A stretch of DNA of 64,000 bases from Amycolatopsis sp. WQ 127309 (lineage in GTDB: Bacteria > Actinomycetota > Actinomycetes > Mycobacteriales > Pseudonocardiaceae): assembly GCF_023023025.1 (NCBI RefSeq), contig NZ_CP095481.1:5717001-5781000 (forward strand), given 5' to 3'. The notes under the pieces were generated by a model that had not been told where the DNA came from, made no database searches, and worked only from the letters and a program-made list of their open reading frames with translations. Positions 3,686 to 10,408 of this stretch are shown in pieces. Positions within the stretch are counted from its first letter, which is position 1; the number at the start of each line of letters is the position of its first letter. Made by a program: the position numbers and the translations under genes.

Positions 3686-5803
3686 GTGAGCAGTTCCGAG
3701 CCCGCCGCCCTCTGGGAGCTCCCCGAGGGGCCGCCGCCCGCCGCCGCGAAAGCCGCGGTGCCGTCGCGTGCCCGGAAGAAGCCGGCCAAGGCGCTGAAGC
3801 CGGGGGAGAAGGCGAAGGGCGCCCAGCAGCCCGCGCCCGAACGGTCCGTGGCGCGGATCGTCGTCGACATCCCACTGGCCCACCTCGACCGCACCTTCGA
3901 CTACCGCGTGCCGGAGAAGCTGCACGAGACCGCGGTACCGGGCTGCCGGGTCCGCGTCCGGTTCGCCGGGCAGCTGGTCGACGGCTACCTCGTCGAACGC
4001 GCCGAAACGACCGACTACGGCAGCAAACTGGCCTTCCTCGACCGCGTCACCTCCGCCGAGCCGGTGCTGACGCCGTCGTTGCACGCCCTCTGCCGCGCGG
4101 TGGCCGACCGCTACGGCGGCACGCTCTCGGACGTCCTGCGGCTCGCGATCCCGCCACGGCACGCGAAAGTCGAAGGCGAGCCGCCCGCCCCGGCAGCCGC
4201 GTTCCCGGAGGCGCCCGACAGCACGGCCTGGGCGCGTTACCAGCGTGGCCCGGCGTTCCTGGAGGCGCTGGCCGAGGGGAAGCCCGCGAACGCCGTCTGG
4301 CAGGCCCTGCCGGGCGAAGACTGGCCGCGCCGGCTGGCCGAGGCCGCGGCGACCGCCGCCGCGGCCGGGCACGGCGCCGTGCTGGTCGTGCCGGACCACC
4401 GCGACCTGACGCGGGTGCACGAGGCGTGCGCGTCGCTCGTGGGCTCCGATGGCGTGGTCGCGCTGATCGCCGGGCTCGGCCCCGCCGAGCGGTACCGGCG
4501 CTGGCTCGCGGTGCTGCGCGGCGCGGTGCGGGTGGTGGTCGGTACGCGGGCGGCGATGTTCGCGCCGGTCGCCGAGCCCGGCCTGTTCGTGGTCTGGGAC
4601 GACGGCGACGACCTGCACCTGGACCAGCACGCGCCGTACCCGCACGTCCGCGACGTGCTGATGGACCGCGCGCACACGGCGAAGGCGTCCCTGCTGGTGG
4701 GCGGTTTCGCCCGGACGGCCGAGGCGCAGCTGCTCGTCGAGTCGGGCTGGGCGGCCCCGGTCCTGGCGGACCGCACGGACCTGCGCGCGGCGGCCCCCCG
4801 CGTCACCCCGGTCGGCGAGGACTTCGACGTCGCCCGCGACGAAGCGGCCCGCGTCGCCCGCCTCCCGGCCGTCGCGTTCGAAGCGGCCCGCCAGGCGTTC
4901 GCGGCGGGCGTCCCGACGCTGATCCAGGTCCCGAGGCGCGGCTACGTACCGGGCCTGGCCTGCGGAAACTGCCGCACATCGGCCCACTGCCGCCGCTGCG
5001 CCGGCCCGTTGGCGTTGCCGGGAGGTTCGATCGACGGCCAGCCGAAACCGCCCGCGTGCCGCTGGTGCGGCGTCCCGGAAACGGCGTTCCGCTGCTCGGC
5101 GTGCGGTTCGGTCCGCCTGCGAGCGGTGATCGTCGGCGCGAAGCGCACGGCGGAGGAACTGGGCCGGGCGTTCCCCGGCATCCCGGTCCGCACGTCGGGC
5201 GCGTCCGAGGTGCTCGCTTCGGTGCCGGGCAAACCCGCACTGGTGGTGTGCACACCAGGAGCGGAACCGGTGGCCGAAGGCGGCTACGGCGCGGCATTGC
5301 TGCTGGACGGCTGGGCATTGCTGGGCCGCCAGGACCTCCGAGCAGGCGAGGAAACCCTCCGCCGCTGGATGGCCGCGGCGGCCTTGGTCCGCCCTTCTGC
5401 CCAGGGCGGCCGGATCATAGTCGGAGCCGAGGCGGGCATGGCGGTGGTCCAGGCCCTGGTCCGCTGGGACCCGGCATGGCACGCATCGCAGGAACTGGCC
5501 GAGCGCCGGGAACTGGGCTTCCCCCCGGCAATGCGCATGGCCAGCGTCGAGGGCACCCCGGACGCGGTGGCAGGCGTCCTGGACGACCTCCCGTTACCTC
5601 CCTCCGGCGAAGTCTTGGGCCCGGTCCCGCTGGGCGAGGTGGACGAGGAGGGCAACGCGGAGCGAGAGCGAGCGCTGGTCCGGGTCTCCCGCAGCGAAGG
5701 CAAAGCCTTGGCCACGGCAATCCACGCAGCCGCAGCCCGGCGCGACGCGCGAAAGGCCACAGAACCGATCCGCATCCAGCTGGACCCGATGGAACTCATT
5801 TAG
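3686..5803 (+). CDS. priA: Primosomal protein N' (PriA-like), helicase motifs degenerate
   Basis: PriA restarts collapsed replication forks. This 705-aa protein has the PriA order: a Pro/Ala/Lys-rich N-terminal tail, the DNA-binding domain beginning RIVVDIPLAHLDRTFDYRVP, a degenerate helicase region, and a zinc-binding module with Cys pairs in CGNC, CRRC, CRWC and CSAC. Where a helicase has the Walker A GxxGxGKT, this protein reads GHGAVLVVPDHRDL, and the DEEH box reads WDDGDD. ATP-driven unwinding is therefore unlikely, as already known for actinobacterial PriA. Start GTG at 3686 fits the actinobacterial N terminus (a -10-like TAGAGA lies 7 nt upstream). The stop overlaps the convergent gene at 5800. 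Confidence 0.9.
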   Translation: MSSSEPAALWELPEGPPPAAAKAAVPSRARKKPAKALKPGEKAKGAQQPAPERSVARIVVDIPLAHLDRTFDYRVPEKLHETAVPGCRVRVRFAGQLVDGYLVERAETTDYGSKLAFLDRVTSAEPVLTPSLHALCRAVADRYGGTLSDVLRLAIPPRHAKVEGEPPAPAAAFPEAPDSTAWARYQRGPAFLEALAEGKPANAVWQALPGEDWPRRLAEAAATAAAAGHGAVLVVPDHRDLTRVHEACASLVGSDGVVALIAGLGPAERYRRWLAVLRGAVRVVVGTRAAMFAPVAEPGLFVVWDDGDDLHLDQHAPYPHVRDVLMDRAHTAKASLLVGGFARTAEAQLLVESGWAAPVLADRTDLRAAAPRVTPVGEDFDVARDEAARVARLPAVAFEAARQAFAAGVPTLIQVPRRGYVPGLACGNCRTSAHCRRCAGPLALPGGSIDGQPKPPACRWCGVPETAFRCSACGSVRLRAVIVGAKRTAEELGRAFPGIPVRTSGASEVLASVPGKPALVVCTPGAEPVAEGGYGAALLLDGWALLGRQDLRAGEETLRRWMAAAALVRPSAQGGRIIVGAEAGMAVVQALVRWDPAWHASQELAERRELGFPPAMRMASVEGTPDAVAGVLDDLPLPPSGEVLGPVPLGEVDEEGNAERERALVRVSRSEGKALATAIHAAAARRDARKATEPIRIQLDPMELI

Positions 5804-6969
5804 CCACCGGCGCCCCAGTCCCGGTTCTCGTTCGCGTCCGGATCGCCGTCGAAGAAAGCGCCTTGGGCGTGCGATGAGTTGGTTCCATTCTCCGGTTCGT
5901 CCGCGTCGATCGTCCGGTAGCTCTCGCGTACCCGCTGCGCCTTGTCGGAGTGGCCGTGCTGTTCGACGAGATCGGCGAGCTGGTGCCCGAACAAGCCGTT
6001 GTCGGCGTCCTCGGGATCAGGCAGCAGATCGGCGTGGACGGCCGGGGGTTCGGTCATCTGCTCGGCGTCTTCGACCGTGAAAGCCGGTTCTGGCGGGCTG
6101 AACGGCGGCGTGAAGAACGCCGGTGCAGGGGCCGGCTCACGCAGGTGTTCCGGCAGCAGGTGCCGGAACAGCTCGTCCACCTCGGCATTGTTGGCGGCCG
6201 CGGACAACCGCGCCAAGGTTCCGATGAGGTCGACCGTCTCGCGCACGTTCTCGTCGGTGCGCGCGAGCCACCACACCACGGTGCTGCCGACGCTGGTCAG
6301 CACCTCGTCGCCCAGATAGGCACGCATCATCCGCTGGTGCTCGATCTGCCGCTCCTGCACCTGCTGCTGCCGGCGCAGCGCGTCCAGTGTCCGGAGATGT
6401 TCGCGATGCTCTTGGCCGACACCGGCCTTCACGTCGGTCGCCCAGACGGACAGCAGCCCGTCGGGACTGGTGGCGGGCTGCCCGAGCGAAGCCGCCAGTG
6501 CATGGAGGACGGTGTCGTCTTCCGGGTGGTGCATTCGGCTGATCTGCTGGGCTCGCTGCACCACCGCTGCCGCGGCTATCGCAGCCTGGTCGGTGTGGCT
6601 GTCGAATGGCCGGGCAGTGGCCGGGCCCCAGTGCACTGTGCAGCCGAACCTGAACGGGATGCCGTCCAGCGAACTGGGCAGCGATCCGGAGGATACCTCG
6701 TGACTCGGTGGCGCCACAGGGGCCGGAGGCGGCGGTGGCGGGGGCGCTTGTTGAGCTGCCATCTGCCGCCGGTACTCGGTTTCGGCGCGGAGCTCCGCTT
6801 GCTCGCGGTGGTCGTACCAACCGCGCAGCACGAGCAGCGTGATGACGAGCGCGCCCGTCATCAGCACTATGGTCAGCCACAAAGGCCAGTCGGCGGCGAG
6901 GCCGGCGCCCAGCGGCACGAGCAGAGCGCCGGCAATGACGGCGATCGCACCGGTGGTGTTCTTGTTCAT
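5800..6969 (-). CDS. Two-helix membrane protein of the cyclase-like/NTPase operon (unknown function)
   Basis: I do not recognise a named family. The 389-aa product starts with two membrane helices (about residues 7-26 and 28-48). A charged segment and a run of seven prolines (about 76-82) follow, then a cytoplasmic domain with FRFGCTVHWGPATARPF. Next comes a long Gln/Arg/Glu-rich helix (EHREHLRTLDALRRQQQ) and the conserved-looking block AYLGDEVLTSVGSTVVWWLA. The last third is acidic and Pro-rich, probably disordered. The ATG at 6969 overlaps the NTPase stop as ATGA, so it is the last gene of the operon. The layout (short membrane anchor plus coiled cytoplasmic part) suggests a membrane-bound scaffold or effector; that is inference. 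Its stop overlaps the priA stop by four bases with no terminator between. Confidence 0.75.
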   Translation of the reverse strand: MNKNTTGAIAVIAGALLVPLGAGLAADWPLWLTIVLMTGALVITLLVLRGWYDHREQAELRAETEYRRQMAAQQAPPPPPPPAPVAPPSHEVSSGSLPSSLDGIPFRFGCTVHWGPATARPFDSHTDQAAIAAAAVVQRAQQISRMHHPEDDTVLHALAASLGQPATSPDGLLSVWATDVKAGVGQEHREHLRTLDALRRQQQVQERQIEHQRMMRAYLGDEVLTSVGSTVVWWLARTDENVRETVDLIGTLARLSAAANNAEVDELFRHLLPEHLREPAPAPAFFTPPFSPPEPAFTVEDAEQMTEPPAVHADLLPDPEDADNGLFGHQLADLVEQHGHSDKAQRVRESYRTIDADEPENGTNSSHAQGAFFDGDPDANENRDWGAGG

Positions 6970-8843
6970 GCTTCTCCTCGGCGTGCAGCGGTCATTCGAG
7001 TGTCGATGTGGTGCTGGAGGGCGAGTGCACTGCGCAGACGGGCTTCGCGGGACTCTTCGTCCGCGGTCCGAACCTGGTCGCGAGCGAACGCGTAGAGCCG
7101 GCTGAGCAAGCGAACTTGTTGGTCGCAGGCCTCGACGAGCAGAAGTGGGTGTTCGGCAAGCCAGGCCCGGACCGGCTCCTCGGGCAGCGTTCCGATGCCT
7201 TCGGCCATCAAGGGCCGCCAGAGCGACAGCAGGTGGTTTCTCGTTCTGTCACCCGCTGCCACCCAGCCGGGGACGCGCAGTCCCAGCAGGATCGCCCGGT
7301 CGGGCGGATGCGGAACGACAGTGGCCAATCGGTGGATCAGCCAACGTTCGAAGTTTCGCCGGTAGACCAGTTCGAGCAGGCGTTCGCGCGCGAGGTCTCG
7401 CACCGACGCGTCGTCGCTGCGGGTGAAGTAGTGCAGCCGCACCATCGCCTGGATCGGCCGTGCCGGGGCGATCGTCACGGTGCACGCTTCGATCATCACC
7501 GTGGCGAATCCGGCCGGTGTATGGGATTTCCGCGCCCAGTCGTAGACGAACCGCCGGAACTCCGGCGCCCGGGTGTCGTCGCGCAAGCCGGCGTCGAGCA
7601 CCTGGAGCGCGAGGGGTTTCGGACCGGCGCCCTCCGACCAGCGACGAGCCAGTGCATACAGGGGCTCGATCGGTCCGGTCGCCAGGGCATGCTCGGCGAA
7701 GTATTCAACGAGGCCCGTGGCGGATCCCATGTCGAGCCGGGGCGCCACATGCGCTACCCAATCGGACACCTGGCCGCGCAGATCGGGGAAGTACGTCCAG
7801 AAGTGCGCTCGGACCGCCTTGTCCAGAGCCAGCTCCGTGAACGCGACATCCCTGCGCCCGTCCACGTGGAGCTTGACCTTCTCCATTCGCTCCGCGAGGT
7901 AGCTGCCACCGAGGCTGTGCCGTTCCTCTCGAGGAGGTTTCACGATCGTCGTGAAGGCGCTTTCGGCTGCCACCATGTCGTCCAGGGACGCCCCGGGAAG
8001 GAACGCCGCGACCACCAGCAACGCGCGCAGCGTGGGATCCTGGTGTTCGCGGAACAGCAAAGCGGCTTGGTGCCCGCGCCCGACATGGGCCGCGACTGCT
8101 TCGCGCATCCAATCGGCGAGCGTGTCGCGGGCGCCGCGTCGAGCCGCCTCGGCGGTCAGGAAAGCGAGGTCGGCCACCTCTCGCACCGGAGACCCGGCCA
8201 AGTACGGCTCGAGGTTGTCGGGTACCTGGAACGTGGTGGGCAGCGGGATGGCTTCCGCCGACAGGCAGGCCTCGAATACGTCCCTGCCGGGCGGACGCCC
8301 GATGGACTTGACCATGGCCGCGTTCCACTCGGGCAGCAGCGCGCGTTGCTCACCCCGGACTACGACGGCGAACCGGGCGTCCTGATGGTCGACAGCATGC
8401 CGGAAAGCCTCCAGATCGCGGCGGAGGTCGCGGACGTGCTGGTCGTCCGTACGAGTCAAGTCGAGCAACAGCCGCTCGCCCGGCCTGATCTCGGCCGGGT
8501 CGAGGGGACGCTCGTCGTCCTCGGCGCGGTCGGGCAGTTCGCGGAGCCGTCCGGCGTCCAAGGTCGCGTTGTCGGTGAGGGCCATCAGCGCGGCAGTCCG
8601 GCGCCCGGCACCGTCGGGGCCGGTGACGACGATCGTGCGGTGCTCGCCGAACAGCGGTCCGTGCGGCGCTTCCGGGCTGACGTAACGCGCGGCGAGCCAG
8701 GCGATGTGTTCGTCCGACACGAACCGGTCGGCGCGCCGGCGCCGGAATCCCGCTGCGTAAAAGGTGATGTGCTGATCCCCGGAGCCGCCGTGCAGGAACC
8801 CCGGACCACCGCCGGTGTCGACGGTGTTCCGCGGGGCGGTCAT
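6966..8843 (-). CDS. Large P-loop NTPase-like protein with N-terminal GGPGFLHGG tag (unknown function)
   Basis: The 625-aa protein begins with a Gly-rich tag NTVDTGGGPGFLHGGSGDQ (residues 6-24). A P-loop-like element GPDGAGRRT follows (residues 75-83), in which the usual GK[ST] is replaced by Arg-Arg-Thr, then a hydrophobic strand ending in Asp (RLLLDLT, Asp about 128) that could be Walker B. The remaining 450 residues look like helical repeats, as in the arms of STAND-type or other conflict-system ATPases. No nuclease, protease or TIR motif is visible. The ATG at 8843 overlaps the cyclase-like stop (ATGA), and its own stop overlaps the membrane gene, so the three proteins are made together. 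Role unknown; a signal-dependent switch is the best inference. Confidence 0.75.
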   Translation of the reverse strand: MTAPRNTVDTGGGPGFLHGGSGDQHITFYAAGFRRRRADRFVSDEHIAWLAARYVSPEAPHGPLFGEHRTIVVTGPDGAGRRTAALMALTDNATLDAGRLRELPDRAEDDERPLDPAEIRPGERLLLDLTRTDDQHVRDLRRDLEAFRHAVDHQDARFAVVVRGEQRALLPEWNAAMVKSIGRPPGRDVFEACLSAEAIPLPTTFQVPDNLEPYLAGSPVREVADLAFLTAEAARRGARDTLADWMREAVAAHVGRGHQAALLFREHQDPTLRALLVVAAFLPGASLDDMVAAESAFTTIVKPPREERHSLGGSYLAERMEKVKLHVDGRRDVAFTELALDKAVRAHFWTYFPDLRGQVSDWVAHVAPRLDMGSATGLVEYFAEHALATGPIEPLYALARRWSEGAGPKPLALQVLDAGLRDDTRAPEFRRFVYDWARKSHTPAGFATVMIEACTVTIAPARPIQAMVRLHYFTRSDDASVRDLARERLLELVYRRNFERWLIHRLATVVPHPPDRAILLGLRVPGWVAAGDRTRNHLLSLWRPLMAEGIGTLPEEPVRAWLAEHPLLLVEACDQQVRLLSRLYAFARDQVRTADEESREARLRSALALQHHIDTRMTAARRGEA

Positions 8844-9664
8844 GGCCGGTGGTGGTCGTCGCGGGGCGCGGGGGCGTGGTAGTTCTGGTCGCCGGTGCCG
8901 CCGTGGAGGAACCCGGGCCCTCCGTGGGTGTTGACCGTGTTCTGCGGTCCGGAGCCGGTCGAAGTTGCTTCGCCGTTCTGCTGGTCGTGGGCCACCGCCC
9001 CCGTGTCCGCCGGGTCGGAGACTCGCGGGAGGAAGCCGTCGCGGAGCAGGTCGCCGCTGGGGGAGGGCACGCGGAGGTAGCCGATGCCCCGGTGCTTCTT
9101 GACCTCGACCGGTGCGGGGACGTAGTGCTCGGGCGCGTCCGCGGCGTACCCCGACAGCACCGCGTCGTGGTACGCCTGTTCCGAGACGATGGCCGCCACG
9201 CGGGTCATCGGCCCGGAGCGGTTGAGGAGCTCGCGGACCGGTCCGGCGTCGAGCAGCCGGTGCGTTTCGATGCGCGCCGTCCCGCTTCCTTCGCTGAGCA
9301 GATCGGCTCCCGAGTCGGTGACCGGTCCGATGTGGACGCTGACGCGCATCCGCAGCGGGACCGGGTCGGCGTGCACTTCGCTGCGGTAGACGAGTTCTTC
9401 CTGCAGTGCCGCGAGGAAGGGGTTCAGCAGGAACGGGAGCATCGTGGACGGGAGGCCGAGCGCGTAGCCGTCGCCGGTGCCGAAACCGAATCGCTGTCGG
9501 TGCCAGATCTCGCTGAGCCCGCAACGCTGGAACGCCGAACAGAGGATCGTGGGTATCGCGTCGGTGATCCGGGCGTGGTCCTTGGCCAGTACACCGCTGA
9601 AGTCGCGGATGTCGACGGCGAGCAGGGCTCGGTAGGGCGGTAGTTCTGCGGCTGCTGGCGTCAC
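8840..9664 (-). CDS. Class III nucleotide cyclase-like protein with C-terminal GGPGFLHGG tag
   Basis: The first 190 residues have the class III cyclase fold order: strand with first metal site AVDIRDFS (Asp18), second metal site FGTGDGYALGL (Asp65), RMRVSVHIGP, then VAAIVSEQAYHDAV and KKHRGIGYLRVP. The position that should carry the transition-state Asn reads RIETHRLLD, so catalytic activity is doubtful. After a polar linker the C terminus carries NTVNTHGGPGFLHGGTGDQ, almost identical to the tag at the start of the next protein. I choose GTG at 9664 because GAGGAG precedes it at proper spacing; a TTG at 9709 is the only upstream alternative. It is the first of three genes joined by ATGA overlaps. 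Length is 274 aa. Confidence 0.82.
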   Translation of the reverse strand: MTPAAAELPPYRALLAVDIRDFSGVLAKDHARITDAIPTILCSAFQRCGLSEIWHRQRFGFGTGDGYALGLPSTMLPFLLNPFLAALQEELVYRSEVHADPVPLRMRVSVHIGPVTDSGADLLSEGSGTARIETHRLLDAGPVRELLNRSGPMTRVAAIVSEQAYHDAVLSGYAADAPEHYVPAPVEVKKHRGIGYLRVPSPSGDLLRDGFLPRVSDPADTGAVAHDQQNGEATSTGSGPQNTVNTHGGPGFLHGGTGDQNYHAPAPRDDHHRP

Positions 9665-9723
9665 GGCGAACTCCTCGTAGTCGGGCTGCGAACACGAGGG
9701 TGCCGACAAACGGGAGGCGGGGT

Positions 9724-9739
9724 TGTCCGGCGCCGGACA
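9724..9739. promoter_or_regulatory. 16-bp perfect palindrome in front of the cyclase-like gene
   Basis: TGTCCGGCGCCGGACA is self-complementary over its whole length. It lies in the 93-bp gap between the Crp-type gene and the cyclase-like gene. Its outline, 5-bp arms TGTCC/GGACA around six bases, is that of a Crp/Fnr site (TGTGA-N6-TCACA), so autoregulation by the adjacent regulator is plausible. A small attenuator hairpin is the alternative. Confidence 0.5.
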
Positions 9740-9757
9740 GTCTGAAAGTGGCGCGCG

Positions 9758-10408
9758 TCACACTCCTGCGGAAGTCTTCAGCGTTTCGAGATTCGATACC
9801 TCGAGTCGTCGCCCAGGCCGTAGCGCGCCGAGTTTGCGGAGGTGCTGGAGGTGAAGCGCGACGGTGCTGCGGGCGAGCCCCAAGGCTTCGGCGATGTCCT
9901 GCTGGGAGAACGGCACCTGATCCGGGTTCGTAGCGGCTCGGTCGGCGAGAGCCACGACTTCGAGCAGCAGCCGCGCGATCTTCCGTTCGGGACTGAAGTG
10001 CACGAGTTCGACTTGGTACGGGACCGTCTGGGAAAGCTTCGTCACCAGATAGTCGGTCAGGACCGAGTGTCCGTCGTGTTCGCTGAGGAAGGCGTTGAAT
10101 CGATCGCCGGAGAGCACGCGGACCGTGCACGTATCGATCGTTTCGACGGTGGCCGTCCGCGCTGACAGTCGCCGCGCGGCGACTTCGCCGATGAGATCGC
10201 CGGCACCGCGCAAGGTGATCAGCAGCTGCCCGCCGTCACGTTCTCCGCCGAGCACCTTCACCCGGCCGGAGATGAGCGCGAGGACGGTTGACCCGGGTTC
10301 CCCTTGCCGGAAGACGCGACTCCCGGGTGGGTATACGCGGTTGGCGCCGGACTCCAGCAATGAGCTCCACCGGCTCTCTCCGAGGAGTGCGCGAAATCCA
10401 CGTGTCAC
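9758..10408 (-). CDS. Crp/Fnr-family transcriptional regulator
   Basis: The 216-aa protein has an N-terminal cyclic-nucleotide-binding beta-roll (YPPGSRVFRQGEPGSTVLAL, SGRVKVLG, GDLIGEVAA, DTCTVRVLSG) and a C-terminal winged helix (PFSQQDIAEALGLARSTVAL). The phosphate-binding cassette reads GEVAARRLSARTATV, where a cAMP binder normally has GExxLxxxxxRxA(T/S)V, so ligand binding is possible and the ligand is unknown. I use GTG at 10408; GTG at 10429 is in frame too. It lies 93 bp upstream of the cyclase-like gene on the same strand, which suggests it controls or senses that system. The upstream region contains GTGA-N8-TCAC, a possible own operator. Confidence 0.85.
   Translation of the reverse strand: MTRGFRALLGESRWSSLLESGANRVYPPGSRVFRQGEPGSTVLALISGRVKVLGGERDGGQLLITLRGAGDLIGEVAARRLSARTATVETIDTCTVRVLSGDRFNAFLSEHDGHSVLTDYLVTKLSQTVPYQVELVHFSPERKIARLLLEVVALADRAATNPDQVPFSQQDIAEALGLARSTVALHLQHLRKLGALRPGRRLEVSNLETLKTSAGV

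Follow-up and report, generated by a model that had tools for sequence, protein, structure and literature searches.

A four-gene cassette in Amycolatopsis sp. WQ 127309

The DNA analysed here, hereafter the window, is a stretch of 64,000 nucleotides from Amycolatopsis sp. WQ 127309 (contig NZ_CP095481.1, positions 5,717,001 to 5,781,000). It contains a cassette of four minus-strand genes coding, in this order, for a Crp/Fnr-family regulator (Crp), a protein with the fold of class III nucleotidyl cyclases, an nSTAND3-like NTPase and a two-helix membrane protein (Table 1). All four genes lie where the original prediction had placed them, and the two ATGA overlaps that it had described were verified. 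The closest database relatives of the cassette proteins are from Amycolatopsis.

Table 1. Features of the cassette in the window (positions are those of the window).
Feature	Position	Strand	Basis or remark
Crp/Fnr-family regulator, cyclic-nucleotide-binding domain	9758..10408	-	domain searches and homologue comparison
Class III nucleotidyl-cyclase-fold protein, effector slot	8840..9664	-	alignment and predicted structure
Cyclase core, residues 11-200	9065..9634	-	candidate metal Asp D18 at 9611-9613 and D65 at 9470-9472; Arg131 at 9272-9274
Cyclase C-terminal motif NTVNTHGGPGFLHGGTGDQNY, residues 242-262	8879..8941	-	own-genome search and cis/trans scoring
Cyclase/NTPase ATGA overlap	8840..8843	-	
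nSTAND3-like NTPase, receptor candidate	6966..8843	-	family profile
NTPase N-terminal motif NTVDTGGGPGFLHGGSGDQHI, residues 6-26	8766..8828	-	own-genome search and cis/trans scoring
NTPase P-loop region VTGPDGAGRRTAAL, Walker-A Lys replaced	8586..8627	-	family alignment
NTPase/membrane gene ATGA overlap	6966..6969	-	
Membrane protein, two N-terminal helices and SPFH domain	5800..6969	-	predicted structure
Membrane protein, hydrophobic N-terminal helical hairpin, residues 4-50	6820..6960	-	
Membrane protein, SPFH-like domain, residues 85-226	6292..6717	-	predicted structure

Conservation and distribution of the cassette

Scanning one genome per species, we obtained a set of 33 cyclase loci (loci are designated by L numbers). 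The NTPase gene is directly downstream of the cyclase gene in 31 of them, and the gene for the membrane protein is then also present in 30; the exceptions are a Frankia locus (L031), without a match to the membrane protein, and L026 and L027, without matches to the NTPase and the membrane protein. Cyclase and NTPase genes overlap by 4 bp in 20 of the 31 loci, taking the NTPase start codon closest to the cyclase stop. A Crp homologue occurs in all 33 loci: directly upstream and on the same strand in 28, 573-900 bp upstream in L026 and L027, and on the opposite strand in L032-L034. The gene order Crp, class III cyclase, NTPase and membrane protein is hence that of a conserved cassette, complete in 30 of the 33 loci, which supports the earlier proposal of a fixed nucleotide-signalling module with a linked Crp; in this set, the genes are not usually found apart, and the check that had been set beforehand did not refute that proposal.

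In 150 genomes of the family, searched at E 1e-10, we found the NTPase in 63, a match to the cyclase family in 82, a count that takes in distant relatives, and a match to the membrane protein in 75. For the 67 strong NTPase matches in these genomes, and among the matches listed (67 for the NTPase, 63 for the cyclase with the weakest left out, and 92 of 93 for the membrane protein), a cyclase gene was adjacent in 42 and a membrane-protein gene in 45, with both neighbours in 32, only the cyclase in 10, only the membrane protein in 13 and neither in 12. At the level of the class, 28 of 345 genomes contained an NTPase match at E 1e-10.

Matching terminal motifs in cyclase and NTPase

A search of its own genome with the window NTPase retrieved, besides the protein itself, a single match, which aligned NTPase residues 3-26 with the C-terminus of the cyclase (E 3.2e-4). 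The two ends share the same motif of about 21 residues (NTVxTxGGPGFLHGGxGDQ), which reads NTVNTHGGPGFLHGGTGDQNY in the cyclase and NTVDTGGGPGFLHGGSGDQHI in the NTPase of the window. Elsewhere, both ends are altered together, as with WNSVGTVQGDVHQSRDHI and WNTVGDVEGDVHQSRDHI in L011, or NTMNFSGASGTFVGVNQNSTNHGKQNY and GTMDFSSASGMFSGINQNSPNHGTQNY in L024. This terminal motif, the key feature of the cassette, was overlooked in the original prediction, whose interpretation was supported in part.

We scored cyclase tails against NTPase heads from 32 loci, both cut by regular expression, with a fallback cut for L025, L030 and L032. Pairs from the same locus (cis) reached a mean of 82.1, versus 33.1 for pairs from different loci (trans), and the own head was top-ranked in 20 of 32 loci. 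None of 20,000 permutations of the 32 pairs attained the observed sum of 2627, the maximum being 1535 for permutations and 905 for composition shuffles. Likewise, cis pairs scored 70.4 and trans pairs 29.9, with the own head first in 9, when the comparison was confined to 13 loci in which even the closest NTPase relative is less than 50% identical. Considering all open reading frames (ORFs) of a locus, it was the cyclase that matched the NTPase head best in 29 of 32 cases (exceptions: L022, L023 and L031).

Codons are identical at 338 of 514 identical residues, against a chance expectation of 292; a recent DNA duplication of the motif is therefore excluded, the copies must be old, and we rejected the motif as duplicated DNA. 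The motif is rich in Gly and Asn and is predicted to be unstructured in the cyclase model, with a predicted local distance difference test score of about 46-55 in the tail. A GPVHTGSGNQ-type pattern, composed after the sequences had been seen, was present in 79 of 120 cyclase tails and in 0 of 120 cyclase cores, as well as in 13 of 32 and 16 of 27 NTPase heads and in 13 of 27 tails of the TIR proteins described below, with no more than 3 occurrences in shuffles.

Matching short tails link immune receptors to effectors in fungi and some bacteria. We consider the chances to be even that the cassette represents a receptor/effector pair of the NLR-like type, coupled by a short homotypic motif, probably of amyloid type, with the copy in the NTPase head templating its counterpart in the cyclase tail.

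TIR proteins in the effector slot

The family sample contained 25 NTPase matches without a cyclase, 20 of which were examined together with 8 from the class sample. In 26 of these 28 cyclase-less loci, all except L052 and L096, a TIR protein whose tail is rich in Gly and Asn is encoded directly upstream of the NTPase. These proteins were called by regular expression, and Pfam, run on 6 of them, confirmed TIR_2 in all 6. The signature W-x-[RHK]-x-E, which we take to indicate the region of the catalytic Glu of TIR domains, was found near the expected position in 25 of 27 TIR proteins, including that of L042. Tails and heads of the TIR loci also scored higher in cis than in trans (58.9 vs 38.5; 0 of 20,000 permutations), with heads cut by a different and less clean procedure than those of the cyclase loci. 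The membrane-protein gene is also found downstream of TIR-type NTPases. The effector slot is exchangeable, holding either a cyclase or a TIR protein on one receptor chassis.

Regulators differ between both types of loci. A Crp homologue was sought in 29 TIR-type or related loci and found in 0, whereas 22 of them contain an HTH_31/XRE-type regulator (one match is partial, and the domain was identified on one protein). These results indicate that Crp goes with the cyclase, and a role of Crp in TIR loci was not kept.

The genome of Amycolatopsis sp. WQ 127309 contains a second cassette, of the TIR type, about 450 kb from the window (L042; contig 1, 5268000-5275500). It codes for a TIR protein with what by eye appears to be a degenerate cyclase-like stretch before the tail, an nSTAND3-like NTPase and a weak Band_7 protein. 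In L096, the effector slot is occupied by a 167-aa protein (3816-4319) without a Pfam match, whose tail resembles the NTPase head and which might be a third type of effector. The third gene of TIR loci L053, L055 and L092 codes for a product of about 108-124 aa that keeps the membrane helices and lacks the SPFH domain.

Orphan cyclases with RHIM-like tails

We found 21 further cyclase matches without a listed adjacent NTPase, of which 13 are orphans with a tail; the tail-less L047, L122 and L125 were left out of the count that follows, as were L119-L121, L123 and L124, where an NTPase ORF is present on closer look. The tetrad [VIL]Q[VIL]G, which is RHIM-like and, we assume, BASS3-like, occurs in 11 of the 13 orphan tails (for example, GTAIQVGHVHGS), with a shuffle mean of 0.26 and a maximum of 2 of 13. 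Bacterial RHIM-like motifs (BASS3) reportedly form amyloid (PMC8086366, PMC9815663). A search of 10 genomes with one such orphan tail retrieved, in addition to the cyclases, similar motifs at the beginning of NB-ARC-like ORFs (L135, L140 and L144) and at the C-terminus of small proteins (L137 and L145), in individually weak matches with E-values of 0.04 to 2.9. Distant relatives of the cyclase are themselves fused to NB-ARC, and that of L043 also carries TPRs. Cyclases without NTPase and without tail are those of L026, L027, L047, L122 and L125.

In L112, L113 and L115-L117, the RHIM-tailed orphan cyclase and Crp adjoin a large ORF of at least 887 aa; the single one tested matched Lipase_3 weakly. 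L119 and L123 contain a tail-less cyclase just upstream of the tailed cyclase of the same cassette; because class III cyclases work as dimers, it could be a partner subunit.

The orphan tails bear on whether the paired motif needs to be an amyloid at all, since it could instead bring the cyclase to the NTPase by homotypic contacts alone, without prion-like templating, as a docking strand or small fold peculiar to each species. Cis pairing alone cannot tell docking from templating, the window motif lacks both the RHIM tetrad and any Pfam amyloid motif, and the coupling of adjacent genes via shared domains, the effector-associated domains (EADs), has been described (PMC7159879). Nevertheless, a motif of about 21 residues that is Gly/Asn-rich and predicted to be unstructured in the cyclase model, together with the RHIM-like tetrad in orphan relatives, speaks against docking alone, which we regard as unlikely, albeit a serious contender.

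Predicted properties of the cyclase and the NTPase

The predicted structure of the window cyclase displays a full class III fold, and D18, D65, R131 and K189 are invariant in 41 of 41 aligned cyclases; D18 and D65 are presumably the metal-binding Asp residues, and R131 the transition-state Arg. Pfam, NCBIfam and PADLOC assigned the window cyclase to no family, and the latter gave no PycC match. A sequence search of solved structures retrieved nothing for the single cyclase and, for a cyclase profile, only weak class III cyclases (E 0.05-0.4). Four residues before Arg131, at what we take to be the position of the class III Asn, the 41 aligned cyclases show a nearly invariant Ser127, so that the activity and product of the enzyme are uncertain.

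PF20720 (nSTAND3) was matched by 11 of 22 aligned members of the NTPase family at E 0.1 or better (best 1.1e-7) and not by the window NTPase itself; a sequence search of solved structures with the NTPase gave nothing useful. The P-loop of the NTPase family reads GxGRRT, and the Walker-A Lys is absent from 21 of the 22 aligned members and present in 1. nSTAND3 is a domain of the defence protein Avs5 (PMC12931631).

The missing class III Asn and P-loop Lys leave room for a dead cyclase or a non-hydrolysing NTPase. In the first case, the cyclase would be a mere nucleotide-binding or scaffold subunit and Crp just a local regulator, as might also be suggested by the degenerate cyclase-like region that seems, by eye, to follow the TIR domain in L042. 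However, the four invariant residues and the full class III fold speak against this reading, as does the GE...R-x-A-x-V phosphate cassette, shared without exception by the 18 Crp homologues that were aligned, and we find a dead cyclase quite improbable.

The membrane protein

Structure prediction, which had been proposed for the membrane protein, produced an SPFH fold with two N-terminal hydrophobic helices. Pfam Band_7 was absent from the window protein and from the 25 families listed for 35 members, and appeared only in the L042 relative at E 0.016, below cutoff; the SLATT_1 match of the window protein (E 4.9e-4) is weak, also below cutoff, and was set aside along with those to VIR_N and DUF3701. 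A membrane-profile search of solved structures retrieved chance calmodulin-type matches only. The proposal that this protein is the effector was not sustained, because its model is scaffold-like and the effector slot is occupied by the cyclase, or by TIR proteins elsewhere, tied to the NTPase through the motif.

This has consequences for a Pycsar- or CBASS-like system with the membrane protein as a nucleotide-gated pore. Cyclase and membrane protein do share an operon, and the SLATT_1 match would fit a pore; in PADLOC, the window Crp matched helix-turn-helix regions and the cyclic-nucleotide domains that Pycsar effectors carry. Like the window cassette, Pycsar combines a class III-fold cyclase with a protein bearing a CRP-type cyclic-nucleotide domain (PMC11224242), but the reader in the window is a transcription factor and an NTPase bearing the paired motif is interposed, unlike in Pycsar as described there. 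Moreover, the SPFH model, the location of the cyclic-nucleotide domain on the Crp regulator, the presence of the membrane-protein gene after TIR-type NTPases and the lack of a PycC match make such a system highly improbable, and neither Pycsar nor CBASS was kept after the domain and PADLOC searches and the modelling of the membrane protein.

Relation to known systems

In the layout of bacterial amyloid-signalling (BASS) pairs, one short motif is found at the effector C-terminus and the receptor N-terminus, with BELL effectors and, less often, CHAT or TIR (PMC7889193). The cassette shares with BASS pairs the adjacent or overlapping genes, the common motif at these same ends, the presence in filamentous actinobacteria and TIR as a rarer effector (PMC7889193, PMC8086366, PMC9815663, PMC12261475); as those pairs are presented in the sections of these papers that we consulted, it differs in its effector, which is a class III cyclase accompanied by a Crp instead of BELL, CHAT or TIR, in its nSTAND3-like receptor and in its SPFH third gene. 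In none of the four main texts does the word 'cyclase' occur. We found no publication on a cyclase as an amyloid-coupled effector in a literature search whose coverage excluded most subscription literature, including Dyrka et al. 2020.

PMC7159879 reports a coupling of cNMP cyclases to Band-7 domains, and also CRP-like factors in the vicinity of other conflict systems. The MoxR/vWA/VMAP and EAD-coupled conflict systems resemble the cassette in their cNMP (cyclic nucleoside monophosphate) cyclases, Band-7, TIR, CRP-like factors, coupling by shared domains and occurrence in multicellular bacteria (PMC7159879, PMC8195603), whereas coupling in the window is via a short tail motif; Pfam detected none of the vWA, MoxR, VMAP and EAD domains in any of the four proteins of the window cassette. 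Avs5 also ties an nSTAND3 NTPase to an effector enzyme, but the effector, an N-terminal Sir2, is fused there (PMC12931631) and is separate and motif-coupled in the cassette. No CATRA or caspase domain appeared in general Pfam, NCBIfam and PADLOC scans of the four proteins, although no search was aimed at them. In agreement with the original prediction, no named system of this composition was found, either in the papers searched or, for the cyclase, NTPase and membrane protein, with PADLOC.

The cassette could conceivably have no conflict role and be a developmental or stress module of filamentous actinobacteria, in which the NTPase would sense internal state and the cyclase and Crp would tune expression. 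The linkage of Crp in all 33 loci and the lack of a PADLOC system match for the other three proteins are in line with this idea, as are the neighbours of the cassette in the window, with the housekeeping genes metK and priA on one side; GH25-like and GGT-like genes lie on the other. Against it stand the patchy occurrence of the NTPase, in the above-mentioned fractions of family and class genomes, the TIR enzymes in the equivalent slot and the use of nSTAND3 by Avs5, and we deem it doubtful.

A possible relay from receptor to transcription

From the anatomy of the cassette, we infer the NTPase to be the receptor and the cyclase the switched enzyme, with the motif coupling both, Crp as the reader and the SPFH protein as a platform. 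The NTPase would sense an invader or stress signal and oligomerise, and its motifs would then nucleate the assembly, presumably amyloid, of cyclase tails. Cyclase protomers would thus be brought together, which may activate them by clustering and lead to the production of a cyclic mononucleotide; this putative ligand would be read by the adjacent Crp, which would then change transcription, while the SPFH protein, with its two predicted transmembrane helices, might anchor or scaffold the complex at the membrane.

Several observations weigh against an NLR-like pair coupled by templating. The cis score fails to exceed both nearest-relative trans scores in 12 of 32 cyclase loci, as expected from shared ancestry, and because it beats both in just 20, relatedness contributes to the cis signal; there is no cis match in L023 and L031 and a weak one in L022, and among TIR pairs the cis head came first in only 7 of 27. 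The RHIM tetrad was present in 0 of 32 NTPase heads and, among the matches listed, in 1 of 120 cyclase tails, for which reason a RHIM/BASS3 identity of the window motif was rejected; the motif had no Pfam match either, its sole weak signal being NACHT_sigma (E 0.0021) in 1 of 41 cyclases. At 9 of the 21 additional cyclase loci for which no neighbouring NTPase was listed, no Crp homologue turned up, and sampling of 6 other genomes of the genus yielded 0 with the NTPase, so that the cassette is patchy. To these are added the substitutions at the class III Asn of the cyclase and at the Walker-A Lys of the NTPase.

The complete relay, a prion-like one leading from an NLR-type receptor through the templated amyloid tail of a cyclase to a co-encoded Crp that reads the cyclase product, with TIR in sister loci, is proposed tentatively, as somewhat short of an even chance. 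A role of the cassette in conflict or defence is plausible. Taken together, our results suggest a novel kind of signalling in bacterial immunity or stress.

Most descriptions of bacterial amyloid signalling concern BELL effectors, which target membranes, and the outcome of this signalling is called unexplored (PMC7889193). If our proposal is true, a cyclase effector would tie a prion-like assembly to a diffusible and measurable second messenger and to a transcription factor, and output, threshold and reversibility would thereby be testable in living cells. The exchange of TIR and cyclase on one receptor chassis and the RHIM-tailed orphan cyclases offer ready-made comparisons, and the cassette is small enough for transfer into laboratory actinomycetes. 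Because the co-encoded Crp would read the cyclic nucleotide, an immune amyloid would in these bacteria be wired to transcription, and not just to membrane killing.

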